From positions 57,543 through 121,542 of the forward strand of contig JACAEM010000001.1 in assembly GCA_013388855.1 (NCBI GenBank): DNA of 64,000 bases, read 5' to 3'. Under the pieces are notes generated by a model, which saw nothing but the letters and a program-made list of their open reading frames with translations, did no database searches and had not been told where the DNA came from. The position numbers and the translations under genes are program-made. Position 1 is the stretch's first letter. Each line of letters opens with the position of its first letter. Origin of the DNA: Chloroflexota bacterium. GTDB taxonomy: Bacteria; Chloroflexota; Anaerolineae; Anaerolineales; Villigracilaceae. Shown piece by piece: positions 4,372-40,379 of this stretch.

Positions 4372-5364
4372 CTACCTGGCGTGATTCTCGTTGGATGAAT
4401 TGCCCTTCTTGAGCCGTTTTTGTTCATACATGATTGCATCCGCCTGGGAAAGGACCGTGTCGATGGTGAAGGTGGAATCCAGATCGATCTGAACGACCCC
4501 CAAACTGAAGGACAGGTTGTACCCGCGCACGGATTGAAGGTTGTAGGCGTCGACATTGCTTTGCAAACGCGCCTGGATGGTGGCGATATCCTTTTCCGTG
4601 GCGTCGATTGTCAGAACGACAAACTCATCTCCGCCCATGCGCCCAATCACATCCGAATCACGGAAGGTTTCGGTCAAAATGCGGACGAAATGCGTCAGGG
4701 CAAGGTCTCCTTCGGTATGCCCGAAGGTGTCGTTGATGTTCTTCAGGCAGTCCATATCGATGTACAAGAGACACAAAGGATGCCCGGCGCGCCGGGCGAA
4801 TTTCAGCAGCCCAGCCGCCAGGATCAGGAAGCCGCGCCGGTTATTCAGGCCGGTCAGTTCATCGGTCAGCGAGAGGTTCCGCAGGCGCTCGTTGGCGCTC
4901 TCCAGTTCCTGGTTCTTTTGGTAGAGTTTATCGGCGAGCAATTGCAAATGTTCACGCTGGAGTTGTCCGGTCTGGGGCAGGCGTGAGGGAGTGGTCGGCT
5001 TTTTGAGCGCCTCATGAACCGCCCGAAGGATTTCCTGCGGTTCAGCCGGTTTCCCGATGATCTGCCGGACACCGGTCGCTTCTGCCAGTTTTCGTACTTC
5101 CGCTTCCATGTAATTGGCGGTCTGGAAGATGACCGGGACCCCTTCCAGCAGGGGCTCGGCGCGCAGACGGCGTACCAGCGTGAAACCGTCCACGCTTGGC
5201 ATGAGCACCTCGGTAATGATCAGGTCGGGAAGTTCGGCGCGCGCCAGTTCCAGCGCTTCTGCTCCGTCATGAGCTTCCAGGAGGCGGTGGTCAAAGTCGC
5301 TTAGAAGGGTAACGAATGACCGTCGGTCTGTTGGGTTGGTATCGACGATGAGGATGGTTGACAT
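4372..5364 (-). CDS. Receiver-GGDEF protein (diguanylate cyclase) with Glu at phosphoacceptor
   Basis: Probable c-di-GMP synthase. Residues 1-120 are a CheY-like receiver, about 125-160 a helical linker (coiled coil, QLLADKLYQKNQELESANERL), and about 160-325 a GGDEF domain. The catalytic motif is intact (GRMGGDEFVVL) and a product-inhibition I-site RDSD lies five residues before it. The receiver is odd: the residue that should be the phosphoaccepting Asp is Glu52 (LIITEVLMP), and the acidic pair near the N-terminus is VDT rather than VDD; the conserved Lys (GKPAEP) remains. A Glu here often mimics phosphorylation, so activity may not need a kinase. Convergent with pcm, 6 bases apart. Confidence 0.88.
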   Translation of the reverse strand: MSTILIVDTNPTDRRSFVTLLSDFDHRLLEAHDGAEALELARAELPDLIITEVLMPSVDGFTLVRRLRAEPLLEGVPVIFQTANYMEAEVRKLAEATGVRQIIGKPAEPQEILRAVHEALKKPTTPSRLPQTGQLQREHLQLLADKLYQKNQELESANERLRNLSLTDELTGLNNRRGFLILAAGLLKFARRAGHPLCLLYIDMDCLKNINDTFGHTEGDLALTHFVRILTETFRDSDVIGRMGGDEFVVLTIDATEKDIATIQARLQSNVDAYNLQSVRGYNLSFSLGVVQIDLDSTFTIDTVLSQADAIMYEQKRLKKGNSSNENHAR

Positions 5365-5556
5365 GAACCTGTTTTCCCTTGGGTTTTTCCACAGTTAAGC
5401 GACACGATATGCAGTCGCTGTGGACTGTAATAAAATGTAACAAAAACTTGTGAAATTCAAGTATAAATCATAGCACAATTCACAAAATCCCACTTGTGCT
5501 TGTCCTTGCCTGGGCGTTTGAAAATACCCTTTGAAACTTGCAATTGGGCGGAAGGC

Positions 5557-7266
5557 TTACCCTGAAAATGGAAATTGGTCCAGTAAATCCCAGCGTTCTG
5601 GTTCCTTTTGCACAGTCCACTCAAAGCGGCTTACGGTAAATGTGATTCCACTGCTGGCGCCAAACTTTGGATCTTTAATCTGGGGAGAAGCATTTTCCGA
5701 TAATTCGACAATCTTCACATGCGGCAACCAGTCCTGAGCTTTGTAGGGATAGCTTTCGCATCCCAATTCCTGGGCGATCCGGCTAATGTCGATGTACATG
5801 GTTTCCAAAAAGGTGTTCTTTTCCGCCAGCAGCCACAGTCGTCCCTGTTGGTTATTGATGTTCATCCTGGCGATATGTTTGACTTTTATCTCGAATGGAT
5901 GTAACGTTCGGGAATATTCTTCAAGGCGTTTTTTCAAGGCGCCATAGTCCTTTACGTTGCGAATGGCTTGCACGGTCAGATGCAGGTCGAGGATGGGCGT
6001 GCCTTCCACAACGCGGGCAGTCTCCTCGGAAAGCTGATACAGCCGGGTATAGTCTTCGCTTTCGGGTCTGACGATAATGAAGGTGGACCTGCCATTTGAA
6101 CTGAACATTTCCGTGCTTTCTATGTCTTTCAACCTGTTCTTGTAAAGGTTGACATGGGCCTCCGCAGAATTCCTTCCGACACCGTAATTCCATGCCAGCA
6201 GACCGCGGTGCAGGTCGTTTTGCCAGGCGGTGCAGAGCCTGGCTTCCAGTTCTGCTACATCGTCTTTCTTCGATACGATTTTGAATTCGTCGCCTGCACG
6301 CTCGGACCGAAACAGTAAAAAGCCTTCATCTTTCGGAAAATGCTTAATAAGTACGTTCGAGAACCGCTTTAGGTCCTGGTCTATGGCGGCGCTCCCATAC
6401 CGGGAGTTCCCCTCGTGCATATTGAGCATATCCGTCAACGCCACGCTTTTTACGACCGCACCTTCCAGGTACCATTTCGCTCCGAGTCCGTTGAGCGCGC
6501 CTGTCAGGGGTTCTCTTGTGATGATGCTCTCCACGATGCTTTTGGTGATCTTCACCTGCTCGGTCGCCTGCTGCTCGATGGTGGCGGGCAATGCGAACGA
6601 GCAAATTGTATCAATAAGCCTATCGTAAGGCATATTAAACTCATTCCAACTTTGATAACTGCTGCTTTCCTCCATGTGTCGTGGAATTTCAGAATGACTC
6701 TCCAGAATGGTCTGCCGGATCACCACGGGACGGAAGGTCTTTCGCTGTTTTTGCAGTTCGTTTTCCGCCTCGGTTTCTGTAAGCCCCACGCCAAAATCCC
6801 ATGTCAACAGCGAATCCATTTCCTGGTTTGCGTATAGCTTTGACAGAAGCCGCTTCATTTCGTGCGGCGTTTTGGATGTGGAGAAAATTCTGAACTCGTC
6901 GCTGCCCGGCGAACGACGGACGAAATCCCCCTTGTCGATTGTGAAAATGGACATGAACTGATATGCCAGTTTATGCAACTCTGAATCCACCACGGACACG
7001 CCGTACACCTTATTCGCCTGCCGCAAATCGTAGATATCGATCTTTGCCATGCCCTTGATGATTTCGGCGGGAATCAGCCATTTTCCCGCCCGCGCGTTCA
7101 GGGCATGGGTGATCGAATCATACAATGCCAGATGTTTGGCGTTCTTCTCAATGCCAGACAGGATTCCTTTTAATTGCTGGAACTGGGTTTCCGAGATCGG
7201 CAATGCATGGAATAGATTCTCCAGTTCCTTGAAGGATTGCAGGAAAATCTTCAGTTCGTTATCCAT
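5557..7266 (-). CDS. Tandem GGDEF-like domains fused to a 2H phosphoesterase
   Basis: A 569-residue cytoplasmic protein of unusual build. Residues about 45-180 and 245-400 are two divergent GGDEF-type palm domains: each has the entry motif (LYDSITHALNARAG; EPLTGALNGLGA), the metal-binding Asp strand (MAKIDIYD; VALTDML), a degenerate signature (GSDEF at 121-125; AGDEF at 324-328) and the following WDFGVG / WNYGVG strand. Residues about 420-565 look like a 2H phosphoesterase with HLTV at 429 and HVKI at 516; the second motif has Lys where Ser/Thr is usual. The acidic residues needed for metal binding are kept in both palms, so nucleotide cyclisation is possible but unproven. It is the last gene of an operon with an NB-ARC ATPase (9 bases upstream). 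Confidence 0.75.
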   Translation of the reverse strand: MDNELKIFLQSFKELENLFHALPISETQFQQLKGILSGIEKNAKHLALYDSITHALNARAGKWLIPAEIIKGMAKIDIYDLRQANKVYGVSVVDSELHKLAYQFMSIFTIDKGDFVRRSPGSDEFRIFSTSKTPHEMKRLLSKLYANQEMDSLLTWDFGVGLTETEAENELQKQRKTFRPVVIRQTILESHSEIPRHMEESSSYQSWNEFNMPYDRLIDTICSFALPATIEQQATEQVKITKSIVESIITREPLTGALNGLGAKWYLEGAVVKSVALTDMLNMHEGNSRYGSAAIDQDLKRFSNVLIKHFPKDEGFLLFRSERAGDEFKIVSKKDDVAELEARLCTAWQNDLHRGLLAWNYGVGRNSAEAHVNLYKNRLKDIESTEMFSSNGRSTFIIVRPESEDYTRLYQLSEETARVVEGTPILDLHLTVQAIRNVKDYGALKKRLEEYSRTLHPFEIKVKHIARMNINNQQGRLWLLAEKNTFLETMYIDISRIAQELGCESYPYKAQDWLPHVKIVELSENASPQIKDPKFGASSGITFTVSRFEWTVQKEPERWDLLDQFPFSG

Positions 7267-7275
7267 TATTAGTGA

Positions 7276-9510
7276 TCAATCAGATGTCAATATCTGGGGG
7301 TTGGTGTTCAGGATTCTTTCTCGGAGCGCCTGACTCTTCTGGATTTCATATTGCATGCCCAGTTGTTGGAAGCTCTCGATTGCCTCGATGACGAGTATCA
7401 GGCTGGTTTTCAGGTCGGTATTTGTCTCAAGGTAAACGGACGCCAGCCCAACCTGCCCCTTTGCAATTTCATCAACCCTGCCGAATTCCTCCGCCGACTG
7501 AATGCCCTCCAGGAAATAGTTCCTGGCATCCTCATATCGCCTTTCCTTCAAGGCGACAAACCCCAATCCATTCAACGCCAGACTGATGTGCCGGATCGGG
7601 TCCTTACGGACGGGGTCCTGCCACGTCTCGAGGGCCTTTTGATACCATTCCCTGGCTTTCGCGGTGTTCCCGCGTTCGTATTCCAGGTCGCCCAGCCCAT
7701 ATTGCACAAACCCCTTGCTGTAGATACCGTAATCGTCCTCGGCGAGTTCCTCGCTTGTTTTCAACACATCCATCAACATCTTTTCGGACCGGTCGAAATT
7801 CCCCAGGCGCAGTTCCACGGTACCCAGGGAGCGTTTGGCGGCGGCGATCAACTGCGGATCCTCCGTCTTGGTTGTGGCGGCAAGCGCCTCCTCCGCCCAA
7901 TGCAGCGCCCTCAGGTAATCTCCTTGATAGAAATAGATCCAGGCAATATTCCGGGCAAAGGTGCTCACAGACTTCCAGTCCGGGATGAGTTTCGCCGCGT
8001 GCAGGGCGGCATGTGCCAGGGTCATGCGATCATACCAGTAGGCGCGTTGCCACAAGACGCTGCCGAAGTGCACGCCGATTTGCACCAGGATCTCGGCAAT
8101 CCCCCGCGTTTGTTTCGTAAGGGAGCCGGATTTTGCCTGTTTCTTCTGAATGGATTTGTAACACCACTGGGCGACACTGAGAATGTTGTTCCGGTCCTGC
8201 AACAGGTCGTCGTAACCGCGCCATTCCTTGAAACTACTCTTCTGGGAGAGCAGATCCACGTAATACTGGGCGGTCTTCAATTCAGCCTGCTTCATGAACT
8301 TGCGGTTGGTTGCAAACTGCGAGCGGATGTATCTGCGCGTCAGGGGCAGGATGCTGAAATAATCCTTGTCGTGCTCGTGCTCGACGAGCGACAATTGCAG
8401 GAGGTCGCTGATGGCGTTCTCGAAGCTGTCATTATCTTCGATGCCGCTGATCTCCTTTAGTGCGGTCCTCGAAACGGGGTCGGGCTGCAACGCCAGAATG
8501 AAGAGCAGTTTCTTCGCGTCCGCCTGCCCCAGCAGATTCCAACTGTGGTTGAAACAGTATTGCAGGATGGGGATGTCGGCGTCGAGGCTCAACTTATCCA
8601 GCACCTGGGTGACCGAATATCCCAGGACGGCGATCTGCCCCTGCACCCACAACAGTGCCAGCGGAAGCCCGCCAGTCAGGTCGATGAGATACTTGCTCTG
8701 GTCTTTCGTGAGGTGGATGTGCTTCTGCCGGGATTCCCAGTCGAGGAGGGCATTGCTTTCCTCGAACGACAAGCCCTGCAGGCGGATGATCTGCCCCTCC
8801 GAGACCCTCTCGCGCGAGGTGATGACCACCTTGAGCGTCATTGGCGAATTCCGCAGAAACTCCAGGATGTCGTGCTGTTCACTTTTCGAGAGGGATTCGA
8901 AGTTGTCGAGGACAAGAAGCGTGGTGCGCCTGGCGATGAGATTGTAAGCGCGGGTAATCTGGTCCTTGATCGACAGATTCCCAATGGTGGGATTCCCCAG
9001 GCTCGTGCCGATGGTGATGAGGATATCCGAAAGGGTCTTGGCTTCGGGGATGACCGGCTCGATACCATGCAGGGTGAGGATGGATTCCTTGGCGGAGATC
9101 CAGATTACGGATTCGAAGAGATCGTTCTCGATACAGCGGTAACTGATCTCGATGGCAAGGGCGGACTTCCCCACGCCGCCGATCCCTTCGATCCCGATAA
9201 TGAAGGTACGGCTGCTCGGCTGCAGGGACTGGAGGATGGTCTTCAACTCCTGCTCTCTGCCCACAAAATACGGACGCCGGGGAAGTTTTGCCATCAAGCT
9301 CGTTTTTTCGTTTTCTTTGGACTTGCCGGTGAGACTCTCGATTTGTTTGGTATACCTGGCAATCGCCTCCTTCTCCATGGTGATGCTGTTGACCAGGTGC
9401 AGGGGCTGGTCGGCTCCATAACGCGCCAGCATCTCTTCGAGAGAGTAGAGGTTCTTCTTGTGCAGCGAGATCATCGTCTCGAGATGGGTGATTTCTTCCT
9501 TGTTTTCCAT
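7276..9510 (-). CDS. NB-ARC STAND ATPase with TPR repeats
   Basis: A 744-residue signalling ATPase of the STAND class. Residues 1-70 form a charged helical region that could be an effector-associated/adaptor domain. The NB-ARC core follows: VGREQEL, P-loop GIEGIGGVGKSALA (residues 106-119), Walker B TLLVLDNFES (197-206), sensor TSRERV (231) and the GLPLALL motif (281-287), then a winged-helix part and, from about residue 500, TPR-like helices. No fused nuclease, protease or TIR effector is visible. STAND ATPases usually oligomerise when a ligand binds the repeats. It lies between a small helical protein (16 bases upstream) and the GGDEF/2H protein (9 bases downstream), all on the minus strand, so the three should work together. 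Confidence 0.88.
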   Translation of the reverse strand: MENKEEITHLETMISLHKKNLYSLEEMLARYGADQPLHLVNSITMEKEAIARYTKQIESLTGKSKENEKTSLMAKLPRRPYFVGREQELKTILQSLQPSSRTFIIGIEGIGGVGKSALAIEISYRCIENDLFESVIWISAKESILTLHGIEPVIPEAKTLSDILITIGTSLGNPTIGNLSIKDQITRAYNLIARRTTLLVLDNFESLSKSEQHDILEFLRNSPMTLKVVITSRERVSEGQIIRLQGLSFEESNALLDWESRQKHIHLTKDQSKYLIDLTGGLPLALLWVQGQIAVLGYSVTQVLDKLSLDADIPILQYCFNHSWNLLGQADAKKLLFILALQPDPVSRTALKEISGIEDNDSFENAISDLLQLSLVEHEHDKDYFSILPLTRRYIRSQFATNRKFMKQAELKTAQYYVDLLSQKSSFKEWRGYDDLLQDRNNILSVAQWCYKSIQKKQAKSGSLTKQTRGIAEILVQIGVHFGSVLWQRAYWYDRMTLAHAALHAAKLIPDWKSVSTFARNIAWIYFYQGDYLRALHWAEEALAATTKTEDPQLIAAAKRSLGTVELRLGNFDRSEKMLMDVLKTSEELAEDDYGIYSKGFVQYGLGDLEYERGNTAKAREWYQKALETWQDPVRKDPIRHISLALNGLGFVALKERRYEDARNYFLEGIQSAEEFGRVDEIAKGQVGLASVYLETNTDLKTSLILVIEAIESFQQLGMQYEIQKSQALRERILNTNPQILTSD

Positions 9511-30803: not shown

Positions 30804-30944
30804 ATGAAAAACACATTTGCCCATCTTCAGCTTCTGGTCGCCAAGATTGACCGCCGTTACATTCAATTCGCCTATTTTGCCTTTATCTTGGCAGGGCTTG
30901 TTCTTACCAAGGCACCCTCAGATGGTGGTGGTGGCCCATTCTAG
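30804..30944 (+). CDS. 46-residue membrane peptide ending in a Gly-rich tail
   Basis: A short gene supported by a strong promoter context, AAAGAGGT 7 bases before the ATG, and its place in a small operon. The product has a basic helix (MKNTFAHLQLLVAKIDRRY), one transmembrane or signal helix (IQFAYFAFILAGLVLT) and the tail KAPSDGGGGPF. It could be a secreted peptide (signal-like core then short tail), a membrane micropeptide, or a peptide precursor. I recognise no family. The dinucleotide use is like its neighbours. Confidence 0.6.
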   Translation: MKNTFAHLQLLVAKIDRRYIQFAYFAFILAGLVLTKAPSDGGGGPF

Positions 30945-30966
30945 TTGCTCGGAACAGGAGAGAATC

Positions 30967-31245
30967 ATGACGATGCTCACATTGGAAGCCTACCCTGCCC
31001 CTTCCTTTAGTTATCGGAGCGTACCTGCGGAGAAAAGTGGTCTGCACCGTTTGTTTGCCGCTGCAATCGTCAGCGACCAATTCCGCAAGACCCTGCTTCG
31101 TGAACCTGAGAGGGCACTGGCAACCGGATATTTGGGACAGACCTTTGCTTTAACCGATCACGAAAGGTCGATCATCCAAAGCGTTCGTGCCGAAAACCTG
31201 ACCGATTTTGCCCAGAAAGTGAATCGCGCATTGAAGAAGGCTTGA
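30967..31245 (+). CDS. Small protein, possibly related to NHLP-type leader proteins
   Basis: A 92-residue protein beginning at ATG 30967 behind AACAGGAGAGAATC. The centre (LFAAAIVSDQFRKTLLREPERALATGY, then LTDHERSIIQSV) has the layout of the nitrile-hydratase-like leader clan used as RiPP precursors or of small proteins derived from it: a 'not-yet-processed' helix, D/E-P-x-x-A-L, then L-T-x-x-E-R. There is no core region after the helices, and no RiPP modification enzyme in the window, so it is probably a stand-alone member. It follows the 46-residue gene by 22 bases and likely shares its promoter. Confidence 0.6.
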   Translation: MTMLTLEAYPAPSFSYRSVPAEKSGLHRLFAAAIVSDQFRKTLLREPERALATGYLGQTFALTDHERSIIQSVRAENLTDFAQKVNRALKKA

Positions 31246-34683: not shown

Positions 34684-34872
34684 GCATGATAACTTCCCCC
34701 TTAAGTCCCCTTCCGAAATTACGAACAGATTTAATATGATTGTATGTTCTCTAGTGCTGGTCATCAATAGACGGGAATGGTTACAGCGTAGACATTTGTA
34801 CTGATTTTTGAAAAGGTCTTGTAATTGATTGTAATTTTTGCTACTCTTGAGTTGTCCAGAGATGGGAGTCAG

Positions 34873-35571
34873 ATGTCAAAAAAAATTCGTGTGACGATTT
34901 TGGATGATCATCAAACTATTATCGATGGGTACCGGTTCCGACTGGGAAACAGTCCACGCGTAGAGGTAGTTGCTGCTGTGAATTATGGGGGGGATCTTCA
35001 GAAGACGCTGGAGGAATATCCCACGGATGTGCTTTTGCTGGATATAAACGTCCCCACATCCCCAGAGAATCCCAATCCATATCCGATCCTGCATACTATT
35101 CCCACCTTATTACAAAATTATCCCGATTTGACGATCCTGGTAATCAGTATGCATGCCGAACGGAGTTTGATCCGTGCGGTGATGGAGGCAGGCGCCAGCG
35201 GATACATCCTAAAAGACGACCAATCCACCCTCCGTGACTTGGAGAATGTGGTGATTTCAGTTTTCAGTGGAGGAATCCATTTGAGTCGCCAGGCAAATGA
35301 TGCTATTTTACGAAGCGAGGCGATTGGAAATCAGCCGCTGTTATCGAAGCGACAATTGGAAGCGCTTTCCCTGTGCCTTTCCTTCCCTGACAGTACTACA
35401 ATGGAACTGGCTGAGAAAATGTCCATCTCCAATTCGACAATCCGCAACCTGTTATCGGGTGCCTATATCAAATTAAACGTCCGCACCCGTATTGCCGCGG
35501 TTACCAAGGCGCGGCAATTAGGGCTGATTTCTCCCGAGCCTCCCACCATACAGGTCTCGAGAGAATTGTAA
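34873..35571 (+). CDS. NarL/LuxR-family response regulator (ComA-like)
   Basis: A 232-residue two-component regulator. The receiver (1-125) is complete: DDH acidic pair, phosphoacceptor in VLLLDINVP, Ser in VISMHAE, Lys in YILKDDQ. The output domain (165-225) is a LuxR-type helix-turn-helix (LSKRQLEALSLCL, TMELAEKMSISNSTIRNLLSGAYIKLNV). I start at ATG 34873, 48 bases inside the longest frame. It ends 3 bases from the convergent ComQ-like gene and is the natural partner of the HisKA_3 kinase at 36838. This pairing matches ComA with ComP of Bacillus; the target genes are not known. Confidence 0.88.
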   Translation: MSKKIRVTILDDHQTIIDGYRFRLGNSPRVEVVAAVNYGGDLQKTLEEYPTDVLLLDINVPTSPENPNPYPILHTIPTLLQNYPDLTILVISMHAERSLIRAVMEAGASGYILKDDQSTLRDLENVVISVFSGGIHLSRQANDAILRSEAIGNQPLLSKRQLEALSLCLSFPDSTTMELAEKMSISNSTIRNLLSGAYIKLNVRTRIAAVTKARQLGLISPEPPTIQVSREL

Positions 35572-35574
35572 AAA

Positions 35575-36501
35575 TCATATATCATGGTTTTCCAGCAATT
35601 TATGAACCGGGGTGATGACTTCGTCTATCAGGGCTGATATGGGTTTGGGGTCTGCAAGGGGGATGCTGTCCAAAATTTTTCTTGCCTCATCATGTTTTTC
35701 GATAAGCTGGTCGGCGCAGTAACTAATTGCTCCGCAGTGGATCAGTATTTCCTGCGCTTCCTCCAATACCCTTGGTTCATTAATGCGTTCTTTTAATTCG
35801 ATGAAATGTGCCTGTTCCGGGTGATTCACAAGGGATGCAAACAGAATAGGTAATGAGGAACGACCCTGGAGCCAATCCGGATTTGCCGGTATTTCCATCG
35901 AATCGTGCATGTCATCGTGGATTTGAATCATTTCGCCGTATAGGTACCCTAATTGTTTCAACTGGGTGGCGATTTCCAGCGTCCCGCCACCGGCTAGTGC
36001 ACCCACTTGTAAAGCCGCACCAAAGAAGGGAGAACTTTTTGCCTTTACCACCTGCCAATACACCGACTCATTCCATAAGGGTTGCACATCAAGGAATTGT
36101 CCAAACGCTGTAAAAAGGAACATCTCATTGAAACTATTTAAGGCTGCCAATCTGGATAATGCATCCTTCGTGCACTGGGCTATGGAATGCAGTGCGGCGG
36201 CTTGAAATGCACAAGCCATATTGGATGCCGCAGGCATGCCACTGTGGTGATACTCCCCGCGTGGGTCGTCGTCCAGCATATCGTCCACTAGCAGGATCCC
36301 CACATGGGCACAACCTACTGCCAGCATGGCAGGGACAGCCTGTTCTGGGAATCCTCCAATTGCCTCACAAGCCCGGACGGGGATGAACCAATGGCCAGGT
36401 TTCTTGGATGCGGCCTGTTGAAACATGGCTTGTGCTTTGTCCCATGATTCCATGCAGGGCAGAGCTGAAAAATCACGGACTACTTGAGAGAAAAAATCCA
36501 T
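35575..36501 (-). CDS. ComQ-like isoprenyl diphosphate synthase family protein
   Basis: A 308-residue trans-isoprenyl synthase fold. Both Asp-rich motifs are intact: DDMLDDD at 73-79 and DDMHD at 196-200; the mid-protein GQFLDVQ and KAKSSPFF segments match the conserved positions of the family, as does GRSSLPILF after the second motif. Housekeeping prenyl synthases are basic after the first motif with RRG; here the sequence is LDDDPRGEYHH, divergent as in ComQ, which prenylates a Trp of the ComX peptide. It starts at 36501 behind CGGAGGCACA. It follows a 52-codon peptide gene and sits beside a HisKA_3 kinase and a NarL regulator. Ordinary terpenoid synthesis remains possible. Confidence 0.8.
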   Translation of the reverse strand: MDFFSQVVRDFSALPCMESWDKAQAMFQQAASKKPGHWFIPVRACEAIGGFPEQAVPAMLAVGCAHVGILLVDDMLDDDPRGEYHHSGMPAASNMACAFQAAALHSIAQCTKDALSRLAALNSFNEMFLFTAFGQFLDVQPLWNESVYWQVVKAKSSPFFGAALQVGALAGGGTLEIATQLKQLGYLYGEMIQIHDDMHDSMEIPANPDWLQGRSSLPILFASLVNHPEQAHFIELKERINEPRVLEEAQEILIHCGAISYCADQLIEKHDEARKILDSIPLADPKPISALIDEVITPVHKLLENHDI

Positions 36502-36526
36502 TGTGCCTCCGTAAAAATGGAAATGT

Positions 36527-36558
36527 CATCCCGCAGGAAATGACTTCCCTGCGGGATG
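36527..36558 (-). terminator. Hairpin between peptide gene and ComQ-like gene
   Basis: On the minus strand CATCCCGCAGG pairs with CCTGCGGGATG over a 10-base loop (11-bp stem). It lies between the stop of the 52-codon gene (36571) and the start of the ComQ-like gene (36501), followed by ACATTTCCATTTTTAC. It may be a leaky terminator or processing/stability element that makes much more peptide than enzyme. Confidence 0.6.
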
Positions 36559-36570
36559 GTTTGACATCTG

Positions 36571-36729
36571 TTAAGTACCAGGTGTTTCAGCCTTCCAGAT
36601 GAGCCAGGTGATATCGCTGGTGGCATTCAATATCTGAATACGGGAGACCCGAGTCAACCCAGCGAGACGACGTTGATGTGCCTGAGATGGCCTGACGGAC
36701 AGCCGCTGGTAAAAAGTTTGCATGTTCAT
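36571..36729 (-). CDS. ComX-like peptide pheromone precursor (52 residues)
   Basis: A short gene with an ideal ribosome site: CAGGAGGTTCTTCC directly before ATG 36729. The 52-residue product is a basic, helical N-terminal part (MNMQTFYQRLSVRPS, then QRRLAGLTRVSRIQIL) and a C-terminal segment NATSDITWLIWKAETPGT with two Trp. ComX precursors are 50-70 residues and are prenylated by ComQ on a Trp close to the C-terminus, then cut to a peptide of 5-15 residues; length, Trp position and the neighbouring ComQ-like gene all match. The primary sequence is not otherwise alike, as is usual for these fast-evolving peptides. No signal peptide is present, as for ComX. Prenylation is inferred. Confidence 0.7.
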   Translation of the reverse strand: MNMQTFYQRLSVRPSQAHQRRLAGLTRVSRIQILNATSDITWLIWKAETPGT

Positions 36730-36837
36730 GGAAGAACCTCCTGTGAAAATGTTGGATTTGACGATATTTGTGGACGAATCTTGGGTTTTGTTTTCTTCTT
36801 ACGCTATAATCGCATCACCTCCTTTTTCAACTGCGGC

Positions 36838-39126
36838 ATGAAAGATACCGTTATGAAAACCACACCCTCCCGCACCCTGTTCTTGACCGGTATCCTGCTT
36901 TCTTGCTTCGTTTTTGCTTTTTTACTGATGTTTACATACGGGCTTCTGTTCATGGCGCCTTATCCGGGTTTTTACTTTAACCCCACGGATGGGACCATCC
37001 TGTCCATCTACGAAGACCTGACTCCTGTTTCTGCACCCCATCTTGTGGTTGGAGATGTCCTGAAGCGCGTAGGCTCGGCCACGTTTGAAGACTATCAGAA
37101 CAGTGCCACATTAAACCTGTTTAGTAATATTCAACAGGGTGAAGAGATTGAGATCACCGTCCTGCGTGATGGAAGGGAAATGACAGTTTCCTGGGTATAT
37201 CCCGGACTCAACGACTCGGAATTCATATCCCGGTTTTTCAACGTTTGGTGGGTGGCGTATATCTTCTGGTTCTTCGGCATGTCCACCCAATTGTTCATGC
37301 GTCCCAAGGACAAGCGCTGGGGATTGTTCATCGCTTCCAATTACCTGACCGGGATGTTCATCATGTTGGGGAGTGTGTCCTCGTACCAGATCTTGTGGAG
37401 TCCGATTCTCTTGCGGGTCGTTGCCTGGTTGATTTTGCCCGTCTATCTTCATTTTCATTGGATATTTCCTCGTTCCCTGCATCGTATCCCGCGCTGGCTG
37501 CAATTTGTCTTCTATACCGCTTGTGGTCTGACTGCCGTCAGAGAATTGCTCGCGGCGTCTCCAGGATCATCGTACTTTTTGGCTGTGGCGCTGGCCTTTT
37601 TAGGAAGTGTCCTGTTGCTGGTCGCACACTTTGTCCTTCAGCCGGACCATCGCCGCGATGTGAGCATTCTGGCAATCGCCGCCTTACTGTCCATGAGCTT
37701 TGCAATATTTGTCAGTGTGATAGGCAGCAGTGGACGTACACCGCATATGGGACCGCTTTCGATCCTGTCCCTGCCGATCCTGCCTGGCGCTTACTTTTAT
37801 ATTTTGTACCGGCGTAACCTGGGCGGGCTGGAGCTCCGCACCAATCGCGCCATCTCCATCTACCTCTTTCTGATCCTGCTGGGGGTGATACTCCTGCTTT
37901 TCGTAGGATTTTTACGATATGTCAACGTCTCTCGCGAAGCGGCTGTATTTATCAATATCACAATCACCCTTCTTGCTGTCTTTGTAAGTATTCTGGTCTT
38001 TCCATCCTTCCAATCCTTTGTCGAACGGCGCATCTTGGGCATCAAGTTGCCCAGCCAAAGTCTGGCCGAGAGTTATTCCGCCCGTATCATTACCAGTGAC
38101 ACACTGTCGGGCTTGTTGAAATTGCTCAGGGACGAGGTGTTTCCCAGCCTGTTGATACGGCAGTATGCCTTTGTGCGAAATCCGGACGCGTCGGTGCAGG
38201 TGATGCTTTTAGAAAACGTGACTCAACATCAGGTTCGGGAGGATGCGTTGAGAGAATTGTTCGCTTCCCTCTCGACAGGACAACTGTCTCCGTCATTCAA
38301 GATAAATTCGCCCCTCGACTGGGTCCACCTGACCCTGCCTTTGCAATTTGGCCCTGATTTGATCGGCGTTTGGCTACTGGGTCGGCGCGATCCCGATGAT
38401 CTATATCCACAAGCGGAACTTCCGATTCTTCAATCGCTTGCCAATCAAACCGCTGTTGCATTGAGCAATATCATCCAGACAGAACGCCTCAAGGCGATGT
38501 ACGAAGCGAATATCAATCGTTATGAACAGGAACGCCTTCGGCTGGCTCACGACCTGCACGATAGCGTTCTTAATGAAATGGCTGCCATCCTTATTAAGAA
38601 CGATTCGCTCTCTCTCTCGCCGGAGTTCCAAAAATCGTATGGCGGCGTGATCAGCCGGGTGCGGGAGATCGTCAGTGATTTCAGACCACCCATTCTCAAC
38701 TATGGTTTGAAGTTTGCGCTGGATGGCTTGGTCGATAACCTGTCCGAGAGAAATCAGGATAAGGTGTTGATTGTTTCAGATATTCGGACGGATGGGGAGT
38801 GGAAGTATCCTGAGGTCGTGGAGCACAATCTATGTCGTATCGTGCAGGAAGCCTGTGAGAATGCCTTGAAATATTCTCGTGCCAGGTCAATCACCATTAC
38901 AGGAGAACTTTCTGCAGGAACGATAGACATAATGGTGACCGATGATGGGGTCGGTTTTAATATTGAGAACGACCTCAAATTGGATGATATGCTTGCCAAC
39001 AAACACTATGGGTTGGCTGGTATGCATGAGCGGGCAAGCCTGATCGGCGCGGCGATACGGTTTGATTCCAAACCCGAACAGGGAACACGGATAAACGTTC
39101 TGTGGACAGTAAAGCAGATGGTTTAG
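36838..39126 (+). CDS. Membrane sensor histidine kinase with PDZ-like domain (ComP-like)
   Basis: About 762 residues from ATG 36838 (36853 is an equal alternative). Order: one N-terminal transmembrane helix, an exported PDZ-like domain (PHLVVGDVLKRVGSATFEDY and EIEITVLRDGREMTVSW), a bundle of about eight further membrane helices, a GAF-like region, then a HisKA_3 domain with LAHDLHDSVLNEM (His about 574) and an HATPase_c domain (QEACENALKYS, TDDGVGFN, YGLAGMHERA). ComP of Bacillus has the same order and the motif LARDLHDSVLQDL. TATAAT at 36804-36809 is the probable -10. It is divergent from the peptide gene and separated from its likely regulator only by the ComQ/ComX genes. Confidence 0.85.
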   Translation: MKDTVMKTTPSRTLFLTGILLSCFVFAFLLMFTYGLLFMAPYPGFYFNPTDGTILSIYEDLTPVSAPHLVVGDVLKRVGSATFEDYQNSATLNLFSNIQQGEEIEITVLRDGREMTVSWVYPGLNDSEFISRFFNVWWVAYIFWFFGMSTQLFMRPKDKRWGLFIASNYLTGMFIMLGSVSSYQILWSPILLRVVAWLILPVYLHFHWIFPRSLHRIPRWLQFVFYTACGLTAVRELLAASPGSSYFLAVALAFLGSVLLLVAHFVLQPDHRRDVSILAIAALLSMSFAIFVSVIGSSGRTPHMGPLSILSLPILPGAYFYILYRRNLGGLELRTNRAISIYLFLILLGVILLLFVGFLRYVNVSREAAVFINITITLLAVFVSILVFPSFQSFVERRILGIKLPSQSLAESYSARIITSDTLSGLLKLLRDEVFPSLLIRQYAFVRNPDASVQVMLLENVTQHQVREDALRELFASLSTGQLSPSFKINSPLDWVHLTLPLQFGPDLIGVWLLGRRDPDDLYPQAELPILQSLANQTAVALSNIIQTERLKAMYEANINRYEQERLRLAHDLHDSVLNEMAAILIKNDSLSLSPEFQKSYGGVISRVREIVSDFRPPILNYGLKFALDGLVDNLSERNQDKVLIVSDIRTDGEWKYPEVVEHNLCRIVQEACENALKYSRARSITITGELSAGTIDIMVTDDGVGFNIENDLKLDDMLANKHYGLAGMHERASLIGAAIRFDSKPEQGTRINVLWTVKQMV

Positions 39127-39248: not shown

Positions 39249-40379
39249 GTGAATACATTTGGAGAAACCCTGCGTGCATTTCGGCAAACCAGCAACGACC
39301 CAGACCGTTCGCAGAAACGACTTTCGCAGGAACGTCTGGGCGAGTTGATGGGGCGTGCAATGGGGGATTTTGGTTTTAGCGGCGCGGCGGTCAGTGATTG
39401 GGAACGCGGAAAAAGCAGGATCAGTGTGCAGGATCGCAACGTGTTGACCGCACTGATACAGGTTTTGCATCAATGTGGGGGTATAAGGACGCCTGCCGAA
39501 GCCAATCGGCTTCTGGAAGCTGGGAATTACAAGGCGCTTGATACTGCTGAGATGCAGAAAATATTTGGCGGGATGACAGAAGAAAAAAAGGATCTGCGCC
39601 CATCGGCTGGTGAGTATGGGAATACTCAATCTTCCGCTCTGTTGCTTCTAACGGATTTCTTTTCCATCCCCCGGAAGGAATTACAAAGGTTGATTGTACA
39701 GGTAGAGGATGGTCCATCCCCGGTCTGGCCGCGAGTGCTTGCCGCGCTGATGCGGTGGGTAATGGACCATGCTTCGATTTCGACCGGGGCCATTTTCTGG
39801 ATTTGGATTTGGCTGGGTACCTGGTGGTTGATGGGGCCTTCGTTGCGTTGGCCCTTTATCGACCATGAATCTGCCGTGCGAGCCGTGATTATGTTCATCG
39901 GCGGAACATTGACCGCCCCTCTGTGTATTGGCTTGCTGGTTAAAACCAGGGAAAATGAATACTGGAAGCAACAAAACGGAGTTAATCTGTGTTTGCTTCG
40001 TCTGTATACATATCAAGGGGCCGGCATCGGATTCAACCTGGGCTACTTTTTTATTTTCCCGCTTGTCCTTATTCGTTACCATCTGCAGCTCGAATCTACG
40101 ATCTGGATCGAGTTCATAGCTGCAACATTGAGCTTGTTCCTTGGGAACATGGCAGCGCGGGTTGTCCCGTATAATTTATGGCGCGCATATGGGCGATTAT
40201 CATTGAAAGATGGCGGGATATTCTTTGTTGTCGCCCTGTTGGGTCCATTATGGGGATTCTTTTTCCTGGAGTTTTATGCCATCCTTGTCACACCGGTTTT
40301 GGGTTGGCTGGTGATTCTGCTGGCTGTCATGCTTCTTGTCGCAGCGGGAACGGGACGCAAAAAGGAAAGCACTCATTGA
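39249..40379 (+). CDS. Membrane-bound XRE-type HTH protein
   Basis: A 376-residue protein starting with GTG. Residues 1-80 are a lambda-repressor-like helix-turn-helix (LRAFRQTS, RLSQERLGELMGRAMGDFGFSGAAVSDWERGKSRIS), then a linker of about 80 residues, then about six transmembrane helices from residue 180 on (ISTGAIFWIWIWLGTWWLMG, GIGFNLGYFFIFPLVLI and a double helix at the end). DNA-binding proteins anchored by several membrane helices may sense membrane state. It lies 122 bases after the kinase gene on the same strand and may belong to its regulon. No homologous named family comes to mind. Confidence 0.75.
   Translation: MNTFGETLRAFRQTSNDPDRSQKRLSQERLGELMGRAMGDFGFSGAAVSDWERGKSRISVQDRNVLTALIQVLHQCGGIRTPAEANRLLEAGNYKALDTAEMQKIFGGMTEEKKDLRPSAGEYGNTQSSALLLLTDFFSIPRKELQRLIVQVEDGPSPVWPRVLAALMRWVMDHASISTGAIFWIWIWLGTWWLMGPSLRWPFIDHESAVRAVIMFIGGTLTAPLCIGLLVKTRENEYWKQQNGVNLCLLRLYTYQGAGIGFNLGYFFIFPLVLIRYHLQLESTIWIEFIAATLSLFLGNMAARVVPYNLWRAYGRLSLKDGGIFFVVALLGPLWGFFFLEFYAILVTPVLGWLVILLAVMLLVAAGTGRKKESTH

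Follow-up and report, generated by a model that had tools for sequence, protein, structure and literature searches.

The 64,000-nucleotide stretch of Chloroflexota DNA analysed here (contig JACAEM010000001.1; hereafter the window) contains, at positions 34873 to 39126, four neighbouring genes that probably encode a prenyl-peptide cell-to-cell signalling system working like ComQXPA of Bacillus subtilis. In the proposed pathway, the ComQ-like enzyme would attach an isoprenoid chain to a C-terminal Trp of a 52-residue peptide and the prenylated peptide would leave the cell and bind the ComP-like kinase in the membrane. This kinase would phosphorylate the neighbouring NarL-type regulator at Asp57, and the phosphorylated regulator would change its target genes, plausibly among them its own locus and an adjacent gene encoding a helix-turn-helix (HTH) and membrane protein. 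Prenylation, the identity of the acceptor Trp, cleavage, export, receptor binding, phosphotransfer and the link to cell density are steps that I infer. All four open reading frames (ORFs) were found where a first-pass annotation, made from the letters of the DNA, had placed them, including a peptide gene of 52 codons with two C-terminal Trp residues. The features of the locus are the following.

34873 to 35571, plus strand: NarL/LuxR-type response regulator (ComA-like), with receiver Asp57 and an HTH domain (Pfam Response_reg and GerE).
35575 to 36501, minus strand: ComQ-like enzyme of 308 residues with a class I isoprenoid-synthase fold, a predicted Trp prenyltransferase.
36505 to 36570, minus strand: region between the peptide and enzyme cistrons, with a strong hairpin that may be a partial terminator (folding against shuffles).
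36571 to 36729, minus strand: ComX-like precursor peptide gene, 52 residues with Trp42 and Trp45 (ORF and conservation in relatives).
36805 to 36825, plus strand: conserved intergenic element 5' of the kinase gene, TATAAT followed by ATCACCTCCTTT (pattern search of relatives).
36838 to 39126, plus strand: ComP-like receptor kinase of 762 residues, with a PDZ-like loop, a polytopic membrane part, a GAF-like domain, HisKA_3 (His574) and HATPase_c.
39249 to 40379, plus strand: accessory fifth gene, encoding an HTH and membrane protein (HTH_31 at 25.3 bits, below the cut-off of 27).

The genes and their order are observed directly. The enzyme and peptide genes lie on the same strand, 69 nt apart, with the regulator and the kinase on either side, and they probably form one transcription unit. 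GGAGG precedes the ATG of both (AGGAGG in the case of the peptide). The kinase ORF has an alternative start at 36673.

Conservation of these genes as a unit is equally a direct observation. The search of related genomes for the four-gene neighbourhood, proposed by the first-pass annotation, was carried out as an alignment-based scan of genome contigs and returned the gene set in 43 loci, every one of them titled as a metagenome-assembled genome (MAG); the patterns used were derived from the ComQ-like family itself, and the scan therefore favours that family. Forty of the loci bear a Chloroflexota name, two sit on short contigs labelled Acidobacteria and one is labelled 'bacterium'; the named relatives are Chloroflexota or Anaerolineales MAGs. 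Loci L058 and L059 have identical coordinates, proteins and peptide and come from two MAGs. The receptor gene adjoins the enzyme gene in 40 of the 43 loci, the remaining three being cut by contig ends, which also hide their layout. Two layouts recur. In the divergent layout (22/43), which is that of the window, the kinase points away from the peptide gene and a HisKA_3-type kinase is found together with the regulator, a homologue of which (172-322 bits) lies at the 3' end of the enzyme gene in all 22 cases. In the co-directional layout (18/43), peptide, enzyme and sensor follow one another on one strand, the peptide being upstream wherever the sequence reaches, and a window-type regulator is found nearby in one locus of the 18 (49 bits). 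The two loci labelled Acidobacteria, L086 and L087, nest within the Chloroflexota clade, as misbinning or transfer might explain.

Strong relatives of the enzyme (E below 1e-30) were found in its own genome and 11 others among 61 genomes searched, and in just three of the 18 genomes of its own genus, that of the window included. In 400 genomes sampled from the phylum there were nine enzyme matches at E<=1e-25, five of them below 1e-100, own genome included. Out of 5.8 billion proteins searched, 7998 candidates were scored and 866 of them matched at E<=1e-10; the best 120 were listed, and the 866 do not all have to be family members. Plasmid records searched with the window enzyme yielded nine entries from enteric bacteria, which are ispB where annotated.

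The window peptide ends seven residues after Trp45 and ten after Trp42. With a simple rule and a profile built from 12 initial peptides, 40 of the 43 loci were found to have an ORF with a W-x(1,2)-W motif immediately before the enzyme gene (37/42 by the automatic rule, plus L077, L092 and L097 by a separate scan), compared with 3 of 47 control loci around housekeeping prenyl synthases (some of these genes were fetched twice; L014 and L026 were left out). As for the other three loci, the upstream peptide of L086 has a single Trp, while L087 and L094 offer merely 475 and 31 nt of upstream sequence. All 11 other genomes with a strong enzyme relative also have a short ORF ending in W-x(1,2)-W upstream. 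The first-pass annotation had held that relatives keeping the other genes without the peptide would count against it: among the 43 loci and 11 relatives, a Trp-ended peptide is present wherever the upstream sequence is long enough, but two more distant loci do lack a convincing one, as discussed below. When the 22 divergent-type peptides are aligned, W-x-x-W is seen near the end of every one and [M/I]-x-x-F near the start, with a variable middle; retention of the Trp motif in otherwise variable peptides is directly visible in this alignment. The rate of nonsynonymous substitution (dN) in the peptide is lower than the synonymous rate (dS) in six of six pairwise comparisons, made within two groups of close relatives. 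By these sequence comparisons, the peptide ORF is not a chance ORF. Most peptides of the family continue for 1-13 residues after the Trp, and those of L064, L065, L078, L095 and L041 end exactly in Trp. Neither Pfam nor NCBIfam gave a match for the window peptide at E<=1. The ComX family PF05952 was dropped as a detector: it gave nothing over cut-off in 100 genomes of the class, and the B. subtilis control also fell below cut-off.

The stretch between the peptide and enzyme genes folds into a hairpin with a minimum free energy of -30.2 kcal/mol in the window (z -6.07 against dinucleotide shuffles). The first 70 nt past the peptide stop reach z <= -2.5 in 17 of the 22 loci with the divergent layout, versus 1 of the 12 co-directional loci folded (mononucleotide shuffles), and the sequence of the stem varies between loci. 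Such a hairpin would fit a precursor made in excess over the enzyme. Diversity rises from the regulator (0.51) through the enzyme (0.53) and the kinase (0.60) to the peptide (0.70), L059 having been dropped from this count and from the kinase alignment as a copy of L058. Passages of a 2014 census likewise give ComX as the most and ComA as the least variable, ComP being there less variable than ComQ (PMC4008528).

The enzyme matches PF00348 (polyprenyl_synt) at 66.1 bits for a cut-off of 27 and, as the first-pass annotation had noted, contains both DDxxD motifs, the first at D73-D77. It is the third and diverged paralogue of its genome, in which two housekeeping paralogues score 217 and 223 bits; each of 21 genomes has one or two paralogues above 190 bits, and the ComQ-like proteins score 64-73 bits. 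GKRxR, RRG and the GK loop that follows the second motif serve trans-prenyl synthases in binding isopentenyl diphosphate (IPP) and the diphosphate. Aligned with 12 Bacillota ComQ and with 47 housekeeping rows, taken from two sets of 17 and 30 that overlap and do not include L014 and L026, the 41 family members show the loss of these three motifs directly: each is found in 0/41 family members and 0/12 ComQ, versus 17/17 and 22/30 housekeeping rows for GKRxR, 17/17 and 30/30 for RRG, and 17/17 and 29/30 for the GK loop. The first DDxxD motif is kept in 40 of 41 family members, and the second Asp motif, in the form Q-x-x-DD-x-x-[DG], in 41/41 family members versus 0/12 ComQ. Lys155 and Gln193 are invariant across 38 rows, Gln193 being found in the housekeeping rows as well. 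In Trp prenyltransferases of this fold, the region of the second motif and the Gln just before it are described as reused for Trp recognition (PMC13290415, in the passages available).

In an unrooted tree with long branches, which speaks neither for nor against a common origin with ComQ, three groups stand as separate branches: the ComQ-like family (92/93, represented by 20 of its 41 members), the ComQ of Bacillota (100/100) and all but two of 19 paralogues. The synthase falls in a clade of its own; a place among the housekeeping enzymes, which the first-pass annotation had named as refuting its proposal, is not what the tree shows. Those two paralogues, L014 and L026, stand beside sensor-like genes and lie near the family rather than with the other 17. 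Identity of the enzyme with a housekeeping synthase was rejected on the strength of motif loss, its own clade and the separate paralogues. A structure search with the enzyme returned synthases alone among the 50 matches listed, and the lack of a Trp prenyltransferase among the matches listed excludes nothing.

End-to-end similarity between the family's sensors and ComP is directly observed in profile alignments. Using hhalign, 39 sensors aligned to nine ComP N-terminal parts with Prob 98.9 and a pairwise E of 1.3e-17 over 506 columns covering the membrane and GAF-like parts; the Bacillus ComP set includes sequences from plasmid loci. On a ComP profile, 34 of 44 family sensor ORFs (some of which are the same gene in two loci) score 10-60.7 bits, versus at most 1.3 bits for 14 other polytopic ORFs. 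In the window kinase, Pfam recognizes HATPase_c (PF02518, 42.3 bits) and HisKA_3 (PF07730, 24.1 bits against a cut-off of 24.0). The PDZ-like loop is backed by weak PDZ_2 hits (E 0.079 in the window, 1.3e-4 in relative L038). The AlphaFold2 model of the kinase (mean predicted local distance difference test score 79.7) has the helices in place, and a structure search matched the C-terminal end, residues 558-760, to VraS and DesK, PDB matches that speak for those residues alone. The regulator has the PF00072 plus PF00196 composition of ComA (Response_reg 45.1 bits, GerE 26.7 bits), and Asp57 is kept in all 22 rows of an alignment made up of 21 loci and the window. A direct repeat, TTGTAATT, with 10-nt spacing at 34819-34836 upstream of the regulator gene may be a binding site.

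The region ahead of the kinase gene has a conserved element. The window and 20 of 22 divergent-type loci have CACCTC[CT] on the kinase strand, within a span that reaches from 330 nt before the start of the kinase ORF to 150 nt past it. A TATAAT-like box, well defined in roughly half of the loci, precedes the sequence CACCTCC(TTT), the anti-Shine-Dalgarno sequence of 16S rRNA. The combined TATAAT and CACCTCC pattern matches the genome perfectly at a single place. A repeat search of the stretch between the peptide and kinase genes reported no repeats of at least 8 nt.

Outputs differ in the co-directional group. Among 19 sensors examined with Pfam (from 17 of the 18 co-directional loci plus L037 and L041; the fragment L093 was dropped), 13 have HisKA, one HisKA_3, three HD-GYP (HD_5) and two a receiver; for L077, whose downstream sensor runs off the contig, the one upstream of the peptide was used instead. 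The sensor of L086 and the first ORF of L087 stop before the output domain. The HD-GYP sensors have HDxGK and HHExxDGxGYP (by pattern in L075 and L076, by eye in L041), and cyclic-di-GMP hydrolysis is therefore predicted for them. In another genome of the phylum (G406), locus L144 has a 71-residue peptide at 5266-5481 that ends LDWWWS; an enzyme at 5450-6478 of ComQ type, with DDLEDRD..ALW and a degenerate second motif, whose place in the tree is with the ComQ of Bacillota (99/95); and, at 6505-8751, a ComP-like sensor, to which the ComP profile gives 89.7 bits and which by eye ends in HD-GYP motifs.

Some members of the sensor family stand without a signal. At L175, L176 and L177, regulator-kinase pairs lie side by side with peptide and enzyme both missing; two pairs of this kind are in G021 and G049 and a third is on another contig of G039. 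In these three clean receiver pairs both signal genes are missing together; the window layout has them between regulator and kinase. Loci L179, L180 and L181 are sensor loci cut by contig ends. Farther out, at L147-L149, a sensor is found beside a distant enzyme, and L149 has a 53-residue ORF ending ANWS just upstream of its enzyme.

How close is this system to ComQXPA? According to passages of PMC4008528, the same four kinds of gene lie side by side in B. subtilis and other Bacillota, with a NarL-type regulator, a ComX of 52-73 residues with Trp 5-10 from its end, a ComQ of 286-309 residues matching PF00348, and a polytopic HisKA_3 kinase (PF07730 and PF02518) with a series of transmembrane helices; the 52-residue peptide with Trp near its C terminus, the 308-residue enzyme and the kinase of the window agree with each of these. 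Window-family enzymes and ComQ also share the lack of the three IPP-site motifs. In contrast, the order there is comQ-comX-comP-comA on one strand, whereas here enzyme and peptide run backwards between regulator and kinase, as the first-pass annotation had pointed out; the peptide has a W-x-x-W motif and no PF05952 match; the second Asp motif is kept, that of ComQ being lost (PMC10853753, in the passages available); and 17 of the 18 co-directional relatives have no regulator homologue nearby, their sensors having HisKA or HD-GYP outputs. Since order, strands and second motif depart from those of ComQXPA, the locus is classed as a variant, distinct from ComQXPA, that most likely works like it. 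Of the first-pass annotation's reading, a prenyl-peptide signalling locus outside the Bacillota is well supported by conservation, the lost enzyme residues and sensor-ComP similarity. Strict ComQXPA membership is not supported, in view of order and strands, the second Asp motif, the lack of a PF05952 match (at whose cut-off B. subtilis itself is missed) and the separate tree branches. Rearranged loci are themselves on record in Bacillota: in ComQXPA-like loci of B. cereus and L. fusiformis, a hypothetical comX lies on the opposite strand and is known by its C-terminal Trp alone (PMC4008528, same passages). Those passages report no comQXPA outside Firmicutes in genomes to 2013, and the parts available of a 2022 KEGG-based survey credit Chloroflexi with the kinase-regulator pair alone (PMC8895600). 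No report of a peptide pheromone in Anaerolineae was found among the open-licence papers searched, a body that misses most subscription papers, and the claim to a first in Chloroflexota holds just for those papers. Two ComQ-type records on plasmids may be mentioned here. A plasmid labelled Stenotrophomonas rhizophila (L110, CP031730.1) carries comQXPA on DNA 96.5% identical over 5.6 kb to a Lysinibacillus plasmid (L111, NZ_CP130332.1), and this record is possibly mislabelled or mixed; an Acaryochloris marina plasmid typed conjugative (L113, NZ_AP026078.1) has a ComQ-like gene.

Several points weigh against prenyl-peptide signalling. The evidence consists of sequence and predicted structure, and all the loci come from MAGs. 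The second Asp motif is intact throughout the family, as in synthases and unlike ComQ, and the enzyme profile matches that of the housekeeping synthases at E 4e-30 and that of Bacillota ComQ less closely, at E 2e-16. Pfam finds no ComX match for the window peptide. At E<=0.01, HisKA_3 is recognized in 13 of the 22 kinases of the divergent layout, ten of the 44 family sensors score below 10 bits on the ComP profile, and the window sensor taken alone matches that profile weakly (Prob 19.4, E 0.0012). Sensors occur without the enzyme (L175-L177, L178 and L182); no convincing Trp-ended peptide was seen beside the distant enzyme-sensor pairs L147 and L148, and neither sensor nor Trp-ended peptide beside the weaker enzyme matches L104 and L106. 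Finally, no exporter or protease is among the eight window proteins scanned, the flanks of the relatives not having been annotated for them.

Could the product be a Trp-prenylated ribosomally synthesized and post-translationally modified peptide (RiPP) with antimicrobial or other activity, the kinase-regulator pair serving autoinduction or self-protection and not population sensing? Passages of PMC10853753 describe such a case in Paenibacillus alvei, where PalX, a small precursor with a C-terminal Trp, is prenylated on Trp by PalQ, a relative of isoprene synthases, beside a kinase gene (palP), and at the present locus an uncharacterised HTH/membrane gene co-occurs. According to the same passages PalX has an NHLP leader, whereas none was recognized in the window peptide (Pfam, NCBIfam, E<=1), and PalQ requires Trp as the last residue, whereas seven residues follow Trp45 and only some relatives end in Trp. 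Against the RiPP reading, no transporter or immunity gene was recognized among the eight window proteins scanned, the flanks of the relatives not having been annotated; the peptides vary save for the Trp motif and the short start motif; and the receptor stays beside the enzyme in nearly every locus (40/43). This explanation is unlikely.

Less probable still is an enzyme that works as a synthase of prenyl diphosphates or terpenoids and makes a small isoprenoid signal, with the short peptide as its binding partner or regulator rather than its substrate. The enzyme does share fold, both Asp motifs and the positions of Lys155 and Gln193 with the housekeeping trans-prenyl diphosphate synthases of PF00348. 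Yet GKRxR, RRG and the GK loop, which most or all housekeeping rows have, are missing in 41/41 family members as in 12/12 ComQ, and the C-terminal Trp motif of the peptide recalls ComX and PalX. The housekeeping enzymes also score above 200 bits on PF00348 rather than 66 and fall in another clade. That a housekeeping synthase and an ordinary two-component system lie next to a spurious ORF by chance, for which the generic Pfam names taken alone would speak, can be practically discounted, since the whole unit recurs, the enzyme has its own clade and two separate housekeeping paralogues, and peptide dN is below dS.

The fifth gene adjoins the kinase in 12 of the 22 divergent-type loci. It is present in six of 61 genomes, all six with a ComQ-like gene, and has no match at E<=1e-10 in the other six ComQ-like genomes of those searched. 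On the other flank, some 310 bp separate the regulator gene from the end of a tRNA-Lys upstream. G+C is 0.47-0.50 across 34-40 kb in a window ranging from 0.47 to 0.57, and 28-32 kb is likewise low (0.49-0.51). A promoter scan gave 7 sites versus 6.4 expected, and terminator-like sites numbered 10 versus 5.0 expected. A small ORF at 30817-31245 resembles, by eye, leader proteins of the NHLP/Os1348 type.

A broader proposal, which at present hangs in the balance, is that prenyl-peptide signalling is modular across Chloroflexota: a portable peptide-prenyltransferase cassette would be combined with a ComP-type sensor whose output is a NarL phosphorelay, a classical or hybrid kinase, or an HD-GYP domain on the same chain. 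Some species would then control cyclic-di-GMP in one polypeptide, the HD-GYP-fused receptors linking the peptide signal directly to this second messenger, and receiver-only genomes could eavesdrop; their regulator-kinase pairs make eavesdropping or cheating testable. If the signalling system exists as proposed, its enzymes, whose second Asp motif is intact, would make up a new predicted family of peptide prenyltransferases, and prenyl-tryptophan signalling would operate in a group known here from MAGs alone and would be older or more mobile than thought.

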